Part shown: piece after piece, positions 4,268 to 15,518 of the stretch | How the letters are laid out: each line of letters starts with the position of its first letter | Numbering within the stretch: the first letter of the stretch is position 1 | Source: a virus | DNA length: 33,610 nt | IMG/VR virus record: IMGVR_UViG_3300025132_000150 | Coordinates: 1-33,610 of that record | Reading direction: 5' to 3' (one strand) | Translations under genes and position numbers: made by a program | Notes under the pieces: model-generated | Seen by the model: the letters and a program-made list of their open reading frames with translations, nothing else | The model's database searches: none | Told to the model about the DNA's origin: nothing

Positions 4268-4559
4268 TATAAGAGGCAGACGCACTATTGAAGAATATTT
4301 AGAATGCAAAGAATGCAACAATCAAATGTTTTCTGAAGTCGATTGTTGCACTCATTGCAAGAGTGACGATCTAAAATGGATGACGCAATACACAGTCTAC
4401 AAGGTTGTGTTTGCCGAAGATGAAGGTGACGCTGTTGAAACTGCGTTAGATATGATGACTGATTTTGAAACAGCAAGTGGAAAAATTATCATTACAAATG
4501 AACAAGATTGTAAAACCCCTGTCATAGATACAGGCAAATTCATAGGAGAACTACAATGA
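4251..4559 (+). CDS. Cys-rich small protein, putative zinc ribbon (102 aa)
   Basis: Contains CKECNNQMFSEVDCCTHC (residues about 19-36), two CxxC-like pairs that could bind one zinc ion. A sheet-rich second half follows (YTVYKVVFAEDEGDAVETAL, then KIIITNEQDC). Zinc ribbons of this kind usually bind nucleic acid or protein partners; the specific role is unknown. It starts inside the preceding gene and overlaps the next one by ATGA (4556-4559), so it is translated as part of a tight cluster. Confidence 0.7.
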   Translation: MIFRTDIRGRRTIEEYLECKECNNQMFSEVDCCTHCKSDDLKWMTQYTVYKVVFAEDEGDAVETALDMMTDFETASGKIIITNEQDCKTPVIDTGKFIGELQ

Positions 4560-5898: not shown

Positions 5899-6107
5899 TC
5901 GAAGTAAAGTACAGAAATAAATCAAACTTCCCTAATCCTTTTACTGTAGTTAGAGACGTATTGTTTTACAAACGCAGAGAAGGAAAACCTAAAACACTTA
6001 TCATCTTTGATGGTGATGTCTTTGAAGAAAAGATAGCACCATTATTGCAGGAGAACTACAATGGCATTCTTACTAATGGCGAGGGCAATCAAGTCAGAGA
6101 TACCTGA
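5736..6107 (+). CDS. Hjc-like Holliday junction resolvase / PD-(D/E)XK nuclease (123 aa)
   Basis: The layout fits archaeal-Hjc-type and phage resolvases: KGDYHERSFVKWLQKLGF with catalytic Glu13, GALGGEYTGDI with Asp43, and LVVEVKYR with the E-x-K pair Glu57/Lys59. It would cut branched DNA during recombination-based replication or before packaging. The ATG at 5736 fits the conserved start (MASKSRAKGD); the upstream in-frame ATG at 5718 adds six non-conserved residues. It overlaps the replication initiator gene by 47 nt, placing it with the replication genes. Confidence 0.75.
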   Translation: MASKSRAKGDYHERSFVKWLQKLGFKAKRQPLSGALGGEYTGDILWRIKEATLVVEVKYRNKSNFPNPFTVVRDVLFYKRREGKPKTLIIFDGDVFEEKIAPLLQENYNGILTNGEGNQVRDT

Positions 6108-6723
6108 CTGCTATGCTAAATGGTTAATGGTTGTGCTTGCAGATCATGCAGATGAAGACAAGCACCTATGCTGGCCTAGTCTTAGCCGACTATCACAACG
6201 TACTGCTATGTCTGTAGCTACAGTAACGCGCAAGCTGCACTGGCTGGAAGATCACGGCTATCTAACTAGAGATCGTGGACACACAGGCAAGTCAACACGA
6301 TATATAATATTCCCAAAGGATGTTGCACACTGCAACAAACCTATTGCAGACAGCAACACCCCTGTTGCAGACAGCAACACTAACCTATCAATAACCAATA
6401 AAGAACCAAAGAAACAAAAGGGTCAGGTTCCAGATGACTGGTTCCCAAGTGATGACCTTTGCAAATCTATTGATGCCAAGCACAAGGAGAACATAGATCA
6501 TGTCACTCAAGCAGATAAGTTCATTAACTACCATCAAGCAACAGGCAAAAAGTTTGCGTCCTTCGACAGAGCCTACAGATACTGGTGTTCAAATCACATT
6601 GAGTGGAGAGCAAACGCAAGCAGGTCTGGATCGAATGCTGCAAGTAAACAATCCAGCCAAGGTAGACAAGCTGCTTCTCACTTCGCTAGAATGCACAACA
6701 GGCTGCAAGGTAGTAGAGATTAG
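6061..6723 (+). CDS. Replication initiator-like protein, winged helix (lambda O-like; 220 aa)
   Basis: Residues 14-84 form a winged helix of the phage replication-protein type: IPDCYAKWLMVVLADHADED, then CWPSLSRLSQRTAMSVATVT (HTH), RKLHWLEDHGYLTRDRG and a wing. A polar linker (residues 92-120) contains the repeated peptide IADSNT/VADSNT. A C-terminal domain follows (VPDDWFPSDDL, then FINYHQATGKKFASFDRAYR and YWCSNHIEW) of the type ending many phage initiators. The RBS is CAGGAGAACTACA. The linker codons make three 21-bp iterons, so the protein probably binds its own gene as lambda O does. No helicase loader of known type is obvious besides the next gene. Confidence 0.8.
   Translation: MAFLLMARAIKSEIPDCYAKWLMVVLADHADEDKHLCWPSLSRLSQRTAMSVATVTRKLHWLEDHGYLTRDRGHTGKSTRYIIFPKDVAHCNKPIADSNTPVADSNTNLSITNKEPKKQKGQVPDDWFPSDDLCKSIDAKHKENIDHVTQADKFINYHQATGKKFASFDRAYRYWCSNHIEWRANASRSGSNAASKQSSQGRQAASHFARMHNRLQGSRD
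6322..6378 (+). repeat. Three 21-bp iterons inside the initiator gene, candidate origin
   Basis: Three dyads of form GTTGC-N5-GCAAC lie exactly 21 bp apart: GTTGC-ACACT-GCAAC at 6322-6336, ATTGC-AGACA-GCAAC at 6343-6357, and GTTGC-AGACA-GCAAC at 6364-6378. A-T-rich stretches flank both sides (about 6299-6312 and 6381-6415). The layout matches lambdoid origins, where iterons sit inside the initiator gene next to an A-T-rich region. Confidence 0.65.
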
Positions 6724-7126
6724 CCGCAGTAGCTTCAAGGATGATGGTGTAGATATTATTGTCAGTGGCTATAGAATAGAATCGACATCGCTTGATGCTA
6801 TTAACAAATGTATAGCTACAGTTATGCAAGCCATGGTTCCAATGCCAAAAGAAATGCTAGTCGATGACCTCACCCTGCTGGCTGCGCTGGTGGTAAAGCC
6901 AGCAGGGGAGTCATCGGACGATCATGCAATGCGGATACAAGCTATAGCTAACGAACTATCAGCTTACCCAGCCGACATCGTTAAGTATGCAATCAAGCAG
7001 GTGTCTGAGACTACTACTTTCTGGCCCGCATACTCAGAGTTTCACAAGCATATCAAGTGGAGACTAAGACGTAGAGAGCTAATGCTTTCATCACTACAAC
7101 AAAAGAAAATTGCACTAGGAGATTAA
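6635..7126 (+). CDS. Replication-region hypothetical protein (163 aa)
   Basis: The open frame begins at 6500, but its first 45 residues are just another frame of the initiator's C-terminal domain. I favour the ATG at 6635, though the start is uncertain and one at 6742 is also possible. The recognisable part is the C-terminal helical region (LSAYPADIVKYAIKQVSETT, then FWPAYSEFHKHIKWRLRRRE). This is similar in style to phage proteins encoded just after the initiator, where a W.P...EL......RR helix is typical. A role as helicase loader or replication accessory is inference from position. Confidence 0.6.
   Translation: MLQVNNPAKVDKLLLTSLECTTGCKVVEISRSSFKDDGVDIIVSGYRIESTSLDAINKCIATVMQAMVPMPKEMLVDDLTLLAALVVKPAGESSDDHAMRIQAIANELSAYPADIVKYAIKQVSETTTFWPAYSEFHKHIKWRLRRRELMLSSLQQKKIALGD
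6862..6916. repeat. Long imperfect inverted repeat within the replication gene
   Basis: CGATGAC (6862-6868) pairs with GTCATCG (6910-6916), and CCCTGCTGGCT (6873-6883) pairs with AGCCAGCAGGG (6897-6907). The total is 18 bp of stem with a small internal loop and a 13-nt apical loop. It is much stronger than expected inside a coding sequence. It could be part of the origin, an RNA structure affecting the operon, or a recombination hotspot. Confidence 0.55.
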
Positions 7127-7420: not shown

Positions 7421-7438
7421 ATTAAAAGGAGAACTACT

Positions 7439-8260
7439 ATGAACAGACTAGGATTTCTAGGCGGCTCAGATATGAACCGCATCATGCGAGGCGAATGGAT
7501 TGCCTTGTGGGAAGAGAAGACAGGCAAGGCAGAGCCTACTGATCTCTCAAATGTTTTAGCAGTACAGCTAGGTATAAACACCGAACACTTTAACAAGCGT
7601 TGGTTTGGTCAGCAATACAGTTCTGAGGATTCAGAAACTATTGTCGCTGCTCACAAAGGTCAAGGCTGGGGTGTTACAACAGAAATGAATTGGGAAGGTG
7701 TACCTCTCAAAGGAACTGTAGATGGTCATATCTTAGTAGACAGAAGGTTTACTGACGAGATCATTGAGTGCAAGCATACATACGAAACAAACAGTATGGA
7801 AAATTGTTTGGCTTTGTACATGCCACAGATGCAATTCTATATGTGGTTGCATCAAGCTAAAGGCTGCTATCTATCTGTAATCTTTGGCAACCGCAAGTGG
7901 GCTGCTGTATATGTACAGAAAGATTGGGACTACATCAACAAGATGAAGGTACACATCACCGAGTTTTGGAGGCATGTCACTGAGGACACCCGCCCTTTCG
8001 GTGACAACGAAGTACCACCTGTATCTATAGATAAGATCAAAGTCGATGGCATGACTAAGCGTGACGCATCAGCAGACAATGAATTTATGAGCAGATGCCA
8101 TGACTACATTGCTTACAAAGATTCAGCAAAATTATTTGAGTCAGCCAAATCTGATCTTAGGGATATGGTTGGTGACGATGAGCGAGAAGTATACTGTGAT
8201 CTTCTTGCCATCAAACGCGATAAGCGCGGATCATTACGCATCACAGTAAAGGAGAACTAG
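7439..8260 (+). CDS. YqaJ-type recombinase / lambda exonuclease-like nuclease (273 aa)
   Basis: A PD-(D/E)XK nuclease of the YqaJ viral recombinase group, which digests one strand of double-stranded DNA ends for strand annealing. Visible motifs are GFLGGSD (residues 5-11), GTVDGH with Asp95, EIIECKHTY with Glu110 and Lys112, and YMPQMQFYMW, where Gln130 matches the family's downstream Q. At 273 residues it is close to the usual length (about 200-300). The RBS is AAAGGAGAACTACT. It is followed after one base by a putative annealing protein, the expected Red-like exonuclease-plus-annealing pair, and driven by the promoter at 7311. Confidence 0.85.
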   Translation: MNRLGFLGGSDMNRIMRGEWIALWEEKTGKAEPTDLSNVLAVQLGINTEHFNKRWFGQQYSSEDSETIVAAHKGQGWGVTTEMNWEGVPLKGTVDGHILVDRRFTDEIIECKHTYETNSMENCLALYMPQMQFYMWLHQAKGCYLSVIFGNRKWAAVYVQKDWDYINKMKVHITEFWRHVTEDTRPFGDNEVPPVSIDKIKVDGMTKRDASADNEFMSRCHDYIAYKDSAKLFESAKSDLRDMVGDDEREVYCDLLAIKRDKRGSLRITVKEN

Positions 8261-8261
8261 A

Positions 8262-8720
8262 ATGTCTAAAGACAAACTTGAGTTATGGAACAAGGTATCA
8301 AAGTCTGATCCCAAGTTTCTAAAGAAGGTATCGTTTGGATCACGCTCATTTACAGCTATTGATCCACAGTATCAGGTCAGAGCAGCAACAGAACAGTTTG
8401 GTACGATAGGCCACGGCTGGGGATGGAGCAACGAAACACGCTTCATCAATGTATCGAATGGAGACACTGCTGTTATAGCTGATGTAACTATATGGACAGG
8501 ATCGCCTAGCAATTCATTCGGGCCTTTCTCTGGATGCAGAAAGTTTTTTGATTCTGCTAAAGGTAGAATGGCAGAGGATGCACCCAAGATGGCGATCACT
8601 GATGGTCTTACAAAAGCCCTATCCCACTTAGGATTCAATGCAGATGTATTCCTTGGTGAGATGGATGGCAACAAATATGCAGCCGATTCAAAGGCTGGTA
8701 AAAATACAGGAGGCTGGTAA
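8262..8720 (+). CDS. Putative single-strand annealing protein, Rad52/ERF-like (152 aa)
   Basis: The pattern LELWNKVSKSDPKFLKKV, then FTAIDPQYQVRAATEQFGTI, GHGWGW and DAPKMAITDGLTKALSHLGF is that of a phage family usually found beside YqaJ-like nucleases. The last segment, with Asp-Ala..A.TD...KA.S.LGF, resembles the C-terminal core of ERF/Rad52-like annealing proteins. It would coat single strands made by the nuclease and anneal them to homologous DNA. RBS AAAGGAGAACTAGA. The function is inferred from family resemblance and context. The stop overlaps the next start in TAATG. Confidence 0.7.
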   Translation: MSKDKLELWNKVSKSDPKFLKKVSFGSRSFTAIDPQYQVRAATEQFGTIGHGWGWSNETRFINVSNGDTAVIADVTIWTGSPSNSFGPFSGCRKFFDSAKGRMAEDAPKMAITDGLTKALSHLGFNADVFLGEMDGNKYAADSKAGKNTGGW

Positions 8721-12676: not shown

Positions 12677-12909
12677 TACGGAGTTCCAAATGCTGTTATA
12701 TTATCTTTTGCGATTACAGCCCCAGCCGTAGTAATCTTAAATACCTCAGTGGTTGTACCGCCAGAGGTATATCTGAAAACCATGTCAGAGCCATCCAATG
12801 TTGCATCCCAACCAGAAGGAAATGCTGCTACATTATCTAAGTTTGCGGCTTGAACATCACCATTGTTATCAATGAGGTCAGCCATTTTTAGAGCTTTAGT
12901 TGTTGCCAT
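12676..12909 (-). CDS. Small fibre-associated protein sharing the fibre's C-terminal module (77 aa)
   Basis: The first 30 residues are unlike the fibre (MATTKALKMADLIDNNGDVQ). Residues 34-77 resemble the last 41 residues of the tail fibre just upstream: W....LDG[NS]D[LM].F.Y.....T.VFK....GAV...DNITA[YF]G[ST]P. It may be a cap, spacer or chaperone for fibre assembly, or a truncated paralogue. It is linked by TAATG overlaps to the fibre before it and the adhesin after it. Confidence 0.7.
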   Translation of the reverse strand: MATTKALKMADLIDNNGDVQAANLDNVAAFPSGWDATLDGSDMVFRYTSGGTTTEVFKITTAGAVIAKDNITAFGTP

Positions 12910-15518
12910 TATGGACTCCCGTAAGCTGTGATATTATCAGCAGATGTAACCGCACCATTTGATGCCAGCTTAAATACTGTTGTGCCGTTATATTGAAAGT
13001 CTAAGTCATTGCCATCCAACACAATCGTCCATTTGCTTGTGCCAAACGCTATGCTGCTTGAACCAAGCGCAACATTGCCACTGCCATCAACTGACAGATT
13101 GTCGTGGTTTGCTATACCAAGACTTGAGAGGCTAGGTGTAGATACAGTGCCAAAAGAAAGTTGGCCTGATCCATCAGTTTTTAGAAACTGTCCAGCCGAT
13201 CCATCGGCTTGTGGGTAGTTCAGTCCATCAAGAACCACATTGCCAGAACCATTAGGAGTGATGTTAATATCGCGGTTGCTGACAGAAACAATACTATTCG
13301 TTCCAACATCAAGCGACCCTCCAAGAACAGGACTTGTGTCCTCGACAACATTAGCAAGCAAACTACCAGCCGTGAATGCGCCTTGCTGCCACGCTGACCC
13401 ATCCCAAACATTCAACTTATCATTTGTGCTATTCCAATAAATCGCACCAGTAATAAGCGCATTACCGTCGTTGTCTGTTGAAGGAGCCGACCCTTTTGCC
13501 CCAAGGTACCGATCATCAAAGCTATCCAGTGCTGCTTCAGCCGCAGTCTGCGCTGCTTCAGATGCAGTCTTTGCTGTTTCACTAGCAGTTTTTGCAGTTT
13601 CACTAGCAGTTTTCGCAGTTTCAGCCGCAGTCTTTGCTGTTGTCGCTGCCGTAGCTTGAGTTGTAGCTGTGTTGGCTTGGGTTGTAGCCGTGTTAGCCTG
13701 AGTTGTTGCCGTTGCAACAAGAGCATTTAAAGATGCCTCTTGTGTTGTGCTTACTTTGGTAAATACTTCGACATAAAGTATATCACCAGCCGTAGCACCA
13801 GCGTTAAGAACTACATTGTTACCAGATATATGATAATCGTTTGTTGATCCGTCAGCACCTTCGACTAAACGAATACCATTCTTAAATACAAGCGTATTAC
13901 CATTTGCATAAATTGACATGGTTTGGCTTGCATCATCAGTAGTAAAAGTTGTCTGATTGCCTGTTGCTGTAAACACATGCGTTGTTGTTAAACCTTGTAA
14001 ATACGCACCAGCAATCTGGAATGATGACCCAACATAAACTTTTAGCTGGCTGTTTGTTGTATCGTACCACAAATCACCAGAACTAGGAGATGCTGGCGCA
14101 GATGATCCAGCCGTAAATAAATCATTAAATGAATTTACAGCAGTCAACGTACCAGCCACAGTGTTTACATTAGCTATAGAACCCGCTACCGAACTCACAT
14201 TACTGTTAGAGCCAGCAACAGTATTGATGTTGCCAATGTTACTAGCAACCACAGCAAAGTTACTTGTCACAGTGCTAATCGTGTTACCCATAGCATTGCC
14301 ATGAGCAACACAATAATAAAGCAACCCGCTAGACGGAGCCGCCGCATCAACAATAATAGTTGTTTTAGCCCCAGCCTGACCAGCCGTACCAGTTGTTGTT
14401 ACGCCAGTTGTATAGCTACTACTGCCATTCTTAAACGCAAGTGTATGACCAGCATTACTAGCATTGCTTTGGTCAAAGATATATGTGTTGCCACGATCTA
14501 ACTGAATTGCTGGGTTGTTACTACCATCCAAAACAAATACGTTCGATCCACCAACACTTGCTACTGTTACAGCATATGTTGTTGTTGCAGATAAGGCGTT
14601 AGCCAATGTGGTAACATCAGAACTTATACCAGCTACAGTAGTTACATTAGATGCAACCCCAGCTACCGATGTTACGTTTGAATCTATACCAGCTACAGTC
14701 GTTACATTTGCAGCAATGTTTTCAACAGCAGCTACATCACTGCTTATTCCTGCAACAGTAGTAATATCACTATTAATTCCTGCAAGAGTATTGATGTTGC
14801 TATTGCTACCTGCGACTGTATTAATATTAGTTGCGTTACCAGCTACTGATGTAACATTAGATGAAATACCAGCAACAGTAGTAATGTTGCTTGCAATGCC
14901 AGCAGCCGTAGTAACATTAGCTTTGATTGCAGCTAACCCAGATATAGCATCTGTAGCCGTAGTGCCATCTTCAATGTCAGCTAATGCAGCTATATCAGCA
15001 GACAAAGCAGCTACAGTTGTAACGCCAGCTACACTAGGGCCAGATTCAACCGCGCCAGTGCTTGCATTAAAAGCAAGGGTCTTACCTATTCTGTTTGCTT
15101 TGAGAGGAAGCGTCATTGACGCAGCTTCATCTTGGTCTGCTAGTCTAAGTGATCTTGTAATTTCATCATTAAGGTCAGCTTGAATTGCAGTAATTCTATC
15201 AAGCTCTGTATTTAGCGTTCCTATTTGGAATGCGCCTTGAGATGGAAAATCAGTCGTTCTTTCTAGTGCAATGCTTCTAGTTATAACAACTGTACTGCCG
15301 CCAGATACACCAGTTACAGATATTGCAACTGCGCCAGTAGAACCATTACCGCCACTTACAGTGTAATCAGCACTAAGAGTTTTCTTTGTGCCATTGACAT
15401 ACACATTTAGATCGGCTTCGGCAAAAAACTCAAACGTAACTGTAAAAGAAGTTTGCGTTGCGCCAGCCGAAACTGTGTATGATACTCTCGGTGTGTTATC
15501 AGCTATGTTTATAGTCAT
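12909..15518 (-). CDS. Tail fibre protein with decapeptide repeats and cupredoxin-like domain (869 aa)
   Basis: Domains in order: residues 1-130, a T7-fibre-like attachment domain (RVSYTVSAGATQTSFTVTFE, DFPSQGAF, ITAIQADLNDEITRSLRLA). Residues 201-310, eleven exact 10-residue repeats of type NVTTVAGISS. Residues 314-418, a cupredoxin-like domain with His358, Cys403, His406 and Met410 as a full set of type-1 copper ligands. Residues 427-460, three more decapeptides. Residues 511-590, a sheet domain. Residues 602-664, an Ala/Thr/Lys/Gln heptad coiled coil (TAKTASE units). The C-terminal part ends in the DNITAYGSP module. It forms a trimeric side fibre by analogy with T7 gp17. The start is 43 bp downstream of the internal virion gene. 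Confidence 0.8.
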   Translation of the reverse strand: MTINIADNTPRVSYTVSAGATQTSFTVTFEFFAEADLNVYVNGTKKTLSADYTVSGGNGSTGAVAISVTGVSGGSTVVITRSIALERTTDFPSQGAFQIGTLNTELDRITAIQADLNDEITRSLRLADQDEAASMTLPLKANRIGKTLAFNASTGAVESGPSVAGVTTVAALSADIAALADIEDGTTATDAISGLAAIKANVTTAAGIASNITTVAGISSNVTSVAGNATNINTVAGSNSNINTLAGINSDITTVAGISSDVAAVENIAANVTTVAGIDSNVTSVAGVASNVTTVAGISSDVTTLANALSATTTYAVTVASVGGSNVFVLDGSNNPAIQLDRGNTYIFDQSNASNAGHTLAFKNGSSSYTTGVTTTGTAGQAGAKTTIIVDAAAPSSGLLYYCVAHGNAMGNTISTVTSNFAVVASNIGNINTVAGSNSNVSSVAGSIANVNTVAGTLTAVNSFNDLFTAGSSAPASPSSGDLWYDTTNSQLKVYVGSSFQIAGAYLQGLTTTHVFTATGNQTTFTTDDASQTMSIYANGNTLVFKNGIRLVEGADGSTNDYHISGNNVVLNAGATAGDILYVEVFTKVSTTQEASLNALVATATTQANTATTQANTATTQATAATTAKTAAETAKTASETAKTASETAKTASEAAQTAAEAALDSFDDRYLGAKGSAPSTDNDGNALITGAIYWNSTNDKLNVWDGSAWQQGAFTAGSLLANVVEDTSPVLGGSLDVGTNSIVSVSNRDINITPNGSGNVVLDGLNYPQADGSAGQFLKTDGSGQLSFGTVSTPSLSSLGIANHDNLSVDGSGNVALGSSSIAFGTSKWTIVLDGNDLDFQYNGTTVFKLASNGAVTSADNITAYGSP
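13527..13715 (-). repeat. Heptad (21-bp) tandem repeat in the fibre coiled coil
   Basis: Encodes residues 602-664 of the fibre: two or three TTQANTA heptads, then TAKTASE-type heptads. The DNA repeats with a 21-bp period (for example GCAGTTT[CT][AC]CTAGCAGTTTT units on the + strand). Such arrays can lengthen or shorten by slippage, changing fibre length. Confidence 0.75.
14589..14918 (-). repeat. Eleven 30-bp tandem units encoding fibre decapeptides
   Basis: Encodes fibre residues 201-310 as 11 contiguous 10-residue units with consensus [ND][IV][TN][TS]VAG[IN].[SA] and no gaps. The copies differ at third positions, so the array is old and kept for its protein sequence. Three further units (residues 430-459) resume after the cupredoxin-like domain. 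Confidence 0.85.

Follow-up and report, generated by a model that had tools for sequence, protein, structure and literature searches.

A probable replication origin embedded in the initiator gene of an uncultured aquatic phage

Iterons located inside the gene of the initiator are known from the phages lambda, P22, L and SPP1 and from the Stx phages. In lambda, the minimal unwinding unit consists of two iterons and the AT-rich region (PMC7466680). SPP1 carries its oriL, with repeats and an AT-rich unwinding element, in the initiator gene 38, and the loader gp39 is encoded in the same replication module (PMC6316719). Proteins that hold short repeats at an origin have been described for plasmid RK2, where the Rep protein TrfA holds 13-mer repeats of one strand (PMC4081077), and for Bacillus subtilis oriC, where DnaD holds pairs of TnnT, the DnaD recognition element (PMC10201434).

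The locus described here has in-gene iterons in an initiator class other than lambda O. It lies in a virus record of 33,610 bp (IMGVR_UViG_3300025132_000150; GC 41%), the whole of which was analysed and is referred to as the window. Positions 6322–6420 very probably constitute the core of a phage replication origin that lies within its initiator's own gene, with the initiator bound to three dyads, an adjacent A-rich segment that melts, and a loader possibly supplied by the next gene. For a group of uncultured aquatic phages, this places the predicted replication origin to within about 100 bp (Table 1).

Table 1. Coordinates of the predicted origin, the initiator gene and the adjoining gene in the window.
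Feature	Position	Strand	Basis or remark
Initiator gene, 220 aa	6061..6723	+	HTH_36, PHROG initiation families, AlphaFold2 model
Recognition-helix codons (residues 52–64, predicted)	6214..6252	+	Helix H52–64 in model; varies with iteron arms
Iteron 1, GTTGC-ACACT-GCAAC (GTTGCACACTGCAAC)	6322..6336	none	Direct sequence; conserved in relatives
Iteron 2, ATTGC-AGACA-GCAAC (ATTGCAGACAGCAAC)	6343..6357	none	Direct sequence; conserved in relatives
Iteron 3, GTTGC-AGACA-GCAAC (GTTGCAGACAGCAAC)	6364..6378	none	Direct sequence; conserved in relatives
A-rich probable unwinding region	6379..6420	+	Lowest stability of any 42-mer in the gene
AACC box array at 6382, 6393, 6404	6382..6407	+	Boxes 11 bp apart, each in a different reading frame
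Next gene, 163 aa, possible helicase loader	6635..7126	+	Overlaps initiator gene by 89 bp

The initiator and the dyads in its linker

The initiator is composed of an N-terminal winged helix (residues 1–90; HTH_36, E 1.5e-11; AlphaFold2 confidence mostly about 90), a linker predicted to be disordered (residues 96–114), and a helical C-terminal domain (residues 121–190) with a weak resemblance to DnaT, matched in 7/26 family members (best 9.1e-5). The gene, the winged helix and the linker position of the dyads, as given in a preliminary description of this DNA, are borne out by the profile matches and the AlphaFold2 model. In the helix domain, the protein matches phrog_1032 (E 1.3e-20) and phrog_391 (E 2.2e-10), which are families of replication initiation or "O-like" proteins, and this places it among the winged-helix phage initiators. 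The Pfam matches comprise HTH_36, IclR, MarR and DnaD_N, and the lambda O family is not among them; judged by its sequence, the initiator belongs to a class distinct from lambda O. A fold search with the DNA-binding domain places it closest to regulators of the MarR and Fur types. These matches are of a generic winged-helix kind, none with E < 0.001 by fold, and naming the domain after a solved structure was therefore abandoned.

Elsewhere in the window, early genes match the families of Holliday-junction resolvases, YqaJ/RecE-type exonucleases and single-strand binding proteins. Four early genes start with a 15-bp cassette, AGGAGAACTAC(A/T)ATG or a close variant (4544–4558, 6049–6063, 7427–7441 and 8250–8264), which is a shared ribosome-binding and start module. 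On the minus strand, positions 12909–15518 encode a probable tail-fibre protein of 869 residues, the ORF translation of which contains many peptide repeats of the TTVAGISSNVTSVAG type.

The dyads are 15 bp long, lie within the linker codons, and follow each other at exactly 21 bp from start to start. The preliminary description had listed three GTTGC-N5-GCAAC dyads, two of them identical; the coordinates and the 21-bp step are correct, but copy 2 begins with ATTGC, and because of this A the three 15-mers all differ from one another. Copies 2 and 3 agree at 14/15 positions, and copies 1 and 3 are alike in their arms only. Sites with at most one mismatch to the dyad occur five times in the window; three are the linker dyads, and the others stand singly at 13275 and 14295, with no second cluster seen in the window. 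In 200 first-order Markov simulations the mean number of such sites was 1.4, and no simulation had two at a distance of 21 bp. A chance origin of the dyads is very unlikely. Because the pattern was picked after the sequence had been seen, conservation in relatives constitutes the stronger evidence.

Conservation of the dyads and coupling to the recognition helix

Scanning of viral contigs yielded 65 relatives, and later scans widened the family to about 36–40% identity. The comparison covers 51 distinct full-length relatives, many of them near copies, which represent roughly a dozen clades. In all 51, the linker contains two to three 15-bp dyads whose place and 21-bp pitch do not vary, and the last dyad directly precedes ACTAACCTATCA or a close variant. 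The weaker cases are L036–L048, where the right arms are weak (GAAAC), and L197, where the dyads are poor. Relatives with the same initiator and no dyads, which the preliminary description had regarded as evidence against its reading, were not found among the 51. The relatives that do lack dyads (L061–L065) also lack the entire winged-helix domain and the AACC array. They have the same neighbour genes and code for a protein of about 105 aa that corresponds to the C-terminal part of the initiator alone (e.g., L065:3944–4285). L065 retains the upstream resolvase-like gene and the next gene, and a search of this contig found no iteron family. The winged helix and its sites are thus missing together.

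Within the family, the arms change symmetrically, with the pairs GTTGC/GCAAC, GGTGC/GCACC, GATGC/GCATC, GTCGC/GCGAC, CTCCG/CGGAG and GTTCG/CGAAC. Arm pairing amounts to 87%, compared with 63 ± 2.5% when the 3' arms are dealt among the iterons (0/5000 as high), in a set that contains two stray 15-mers that are not iterons. At 35–60% protein identity, the same residue is encoded by the same codon in 88–91% of cases in the iterons, compared with 44% for residues of the helix domain and 60% for those of the C-terminal part, i.e., synonymous conservation of the iteron codons is about twice that of helix-domain codons. In the four codons after the iterons the value is 100%, a figure helped by the anchor used, through which no gene was lost. 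Since the iteron codons are synonymously conserved and the arms symmetric, the constraint acts on the DNA. From the sequences, the dyads are probably cognate to the protein encoded by the gene in which they lie. At the corresponding place, more distant initiator genes carry different iterons, some with pitches (17, 22 and 23 bp) that are not multiples of 3.

Covariation of the dyads with the HTH residues, which had been suggested as a check of the origin reading, is observed: the arm class varies with the predicted recognition helix, which lends indirect support to binding of the dyads by the initiator. Helix distance correlates with arm distance at r = 0.76, and at r = 0.63 once C-terminal and N-terminal divergence is removed (partial Mantel, permutation p = 0.0004; close relatives are not wholly independent data points). 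Proteins with T[VI]TRKL at residues 54–59 are paired with GNTGC arms, TVARKL with GTCGC, TLYVKL with CTCCG, SVHSKL with GTTCG, and TVFNKL with GTAGY. Within the T[VI]TRKL class, G or A at arm position 2 occurs only in Ser53 proteins. Because the tree shows few independent changes (three for Ser53, one for TVA), the assignments to single residues are to be read as hypotheses, and the evidence that Ser53 alone brings about G at arm position 2 is suggestive only, with about three changes in the tree. With its matched recognition helices and half-sites, the family is a natural series that could reveal the specificity code of these initiators, and its six arm classes provide protein/site pairs for the question of how initiators switch specificity while the site remains coding.

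As for iteron number, the P22-like Salmonella phages and prophages L067, L068, L148 and L150 have close initiator genes that differ mostly in this respect (1, 2, 4 and 4 iterons), and offer a natural series on copy-number needs. Repeated sites may not be essential, since the P22-like phage SI8 has a single clear repeat copy.

The A-rich region, the AACC array and the next gene

The segment that abuts the last dyad (6379–6420) has 29% GC and reaches the 95th percentile of the window for instability, and its first 12 bases, ACTAACCTATCA, are nearly constant across the family. Easily melted, AT-rich DNA is thus found directly beside the repeats, as is expected of an in-gene origin. A-T-rich DNA had been described on both sides of the dyads; this holds fully for the downstream side, and upstream the GC content is indeed low (31% at 6293–6321) but the DNA is not unusually unstable, with 6280–6321 only at the 69th percentile.

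The AACC triple within the A-rich region is the sole such triple in the 33.6 kb. Boxes similar to AACC follow the different iterons of initiator genes in Salmonella, Vibrio, Sphingopyxis, Pseudomonas, Proteus, Microbulbifer, Acinetobacter and Arthrobacter phages or prophages. Diverse phage initiators were fished for with a hand-written generic winged-helix query, and only the retrieved records were used. In 39 diverse genes, not all of them independent, the linker window contains 145 AACC, compared with 92.7 ± 6.0 in codon-preserving shuffles, and 39 AACC pairs at 9–14 bp, compared with 12.3 ± 3.1. Two new scans gave a hold-out set of 91 clusters of phage initiator genes, in which close pairs number 62 (10.8 ± 2.7 in shuffles) and 41 (15.9 ± 3.5), in total 103 against about 27 expected. 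The controls GGTT, AACG, AAGG, CAAC and GACC had no comparable effect in the hold-out set; ACCA overlaps AACC. AACC density peaks at 300–420 nt of the gene (21–23 per kb, compared with 0–8 elsewhere), the spacing peaks are at 10, 11, 12, 17 and 23, and the box consensus is about (A)(A/T)GAACC(A). The codon-preserving shuffles, together with the mixed reading frames, rule out that AACC merely reflects the coding of "EP" or "TNLS" peptides. The array is not a universal feature, being missing from lambda, P22, SfIV, KpF5 and C72C1. Two inverted boxes (GGTTCC, 14 bp apart) lie right after the array at 6429–6446, and do not look conserved in relatives.

The linkers of the hold-out genes are also rich in dyads and repeated 8-mers, and iterons followed by an AACC array therefore look like a common plan of the initiator class. 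The array may serve as a strand-specific element for unwinding or helicase loading. The wider proposal, to which we give even chances, is that the array is a second origin element common to a broad class of winged-helix initiator genes in phages, on one strand just after the last iteron, with boxes mostly 10, 11, 12 or 17 bp apart irrespective of frame, in phages of marine, enterobacterial, alphaproteobacterial-type, acinetobacter and arthrobacter origin. It would be a counterpart of the strand-specific boxes of oriC and RK2, recognised in single-stranded form by the initiator or loader during melting. No description of the AACC element or of the compensatory iteron series was found in the open-licence papers searched, absence from which is not proof of novelty. 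The array could help to find and orient in-gene origins in many phages and prophages, and its function is approachable in common laboratory phages.

The next gene is kept in 19/19 relatives' loci searched. Its model (confidence 87) has a weak fold match to SPP1 G39P (1no1_A; TM 0.64 by target length, probability 0.80, E 0.77), and the product also matches models of phage replisome organizers, which makes a helicase loader a possible assignment.

Proposed mechanism, alternative readings and known systems

We infer binding and dimerisation of the initiator, melting, helicase loading and replication start at the site. The N-terminal winged helix would mediate binding of the initiator, probably as a dimer, to each 15-bp dyad. 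With a dyad spacing of two helical turns, the bound dimers would all face the same side of the DNA and could assemble into a structure resembling the O-some of lambda; its strain would melt the adjacent A-rich 42 bp. Once exposed, the AACC strand might be retained by the initiator or by the DnaT-like domain at its C-terminus, and the next gene would supply the protein that brings the host replicative helicase to the melted site.

Palindromic sites and a winged-helix dimer are typical of operators, and with a fold closest to MarR and Fur regulators it is conceivable that the initiator or another phage regulator controls its own operon through the dyads, while replication starts elsewhere. The sites are, however, about 260–320 bp inside the gene and not at a promoter, the DNA they adjoin is the least stable in the gene, and the origins of lambda, P22 and SPP1 are laid out alike. 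Control by the dyads in place of an origin is accordingly very improbable, and autoregulation could accompany the origin function. It is very improbable that the site binds the initiator as one of two origins, with the main origin elsewhere in the genome. The precedent is SPP1, in which oriL and oriR share one initiator (PMC6316719), but the window has no second dyad cluster, only the two single sites, and with related contigs of 33.1–33.8 kb, similar to the window in length, little sequence is likely to be missing.

The repeats might also be a feature of the peptide, a duplicated 7-residue linker unit (VADSNTP) that is palindromic by accident, and the steps in the family, all of 21 bp, do keep the copies in frame. 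This is ruled out by the near-fixed synonymous codons of the iterons, by residues that change while the arms change symmetrically, and by the frame-breaking pitches of distant relatives, and we consider it extremely improbable. The embedded origin thus remains our preferred reading: repeated sequences that resemble initiator sites lie within the initiator gene itself. A lambda-style origin, as first suggested for this DNA, is well supported as a mode of action by analogy with lambda, P22 and SPP1, whose origins of matching arrangement are proven or annotated, with the reservation that the protein itself is not of the lambda O family.

The closest similarities are to ori-lambda in gene O and to the Stx-phage origins, where inverted-repeat iterons about 20 bp apart occupy the middle of the initiator gene, with AT-rich DNA directly downstream and a loader gene next (PMC7466680). 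Unlike the initiator described here, the lambda O protein is without the MxxxLMA...CWPS type of winged helix and the DnaT-like end. The lambda origin contains four iterons, lacks an AACC array and carries CAAAAGA repeats in its AT-rich part. After the iterons, lambda (L182) and P22 (L283) repeat ACAAAAGA, and TP901-1 (L284) repeats AA(C/T)ACT; the unwinding region may thus hold a repeated box particular to each class of initiator. The gene 18 origins of P22 and L are similar in that related initiators each have different iterons inside their own gene (PMC8022706), but gp18 is lambda-O-like and the P22 origin is without an AACC array. SPP1 oriL also lies within the initiator gene, and the weak G39P-like fold match of the next-gene product adds to the resemblance, whereas the DnaB-type helicase gp40 and the second origin of SPP1 have no counterpart seen in the window. 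The RK2 13-mers and the DnaD element, as short one-strand repeats in the unwinding region, are the likely analogues of the AACC array, with single-strand binding of AACC by phage proteins being putative, and differ from it in that the repeated unit here is AACC rather than a 13-mer or TnnT.
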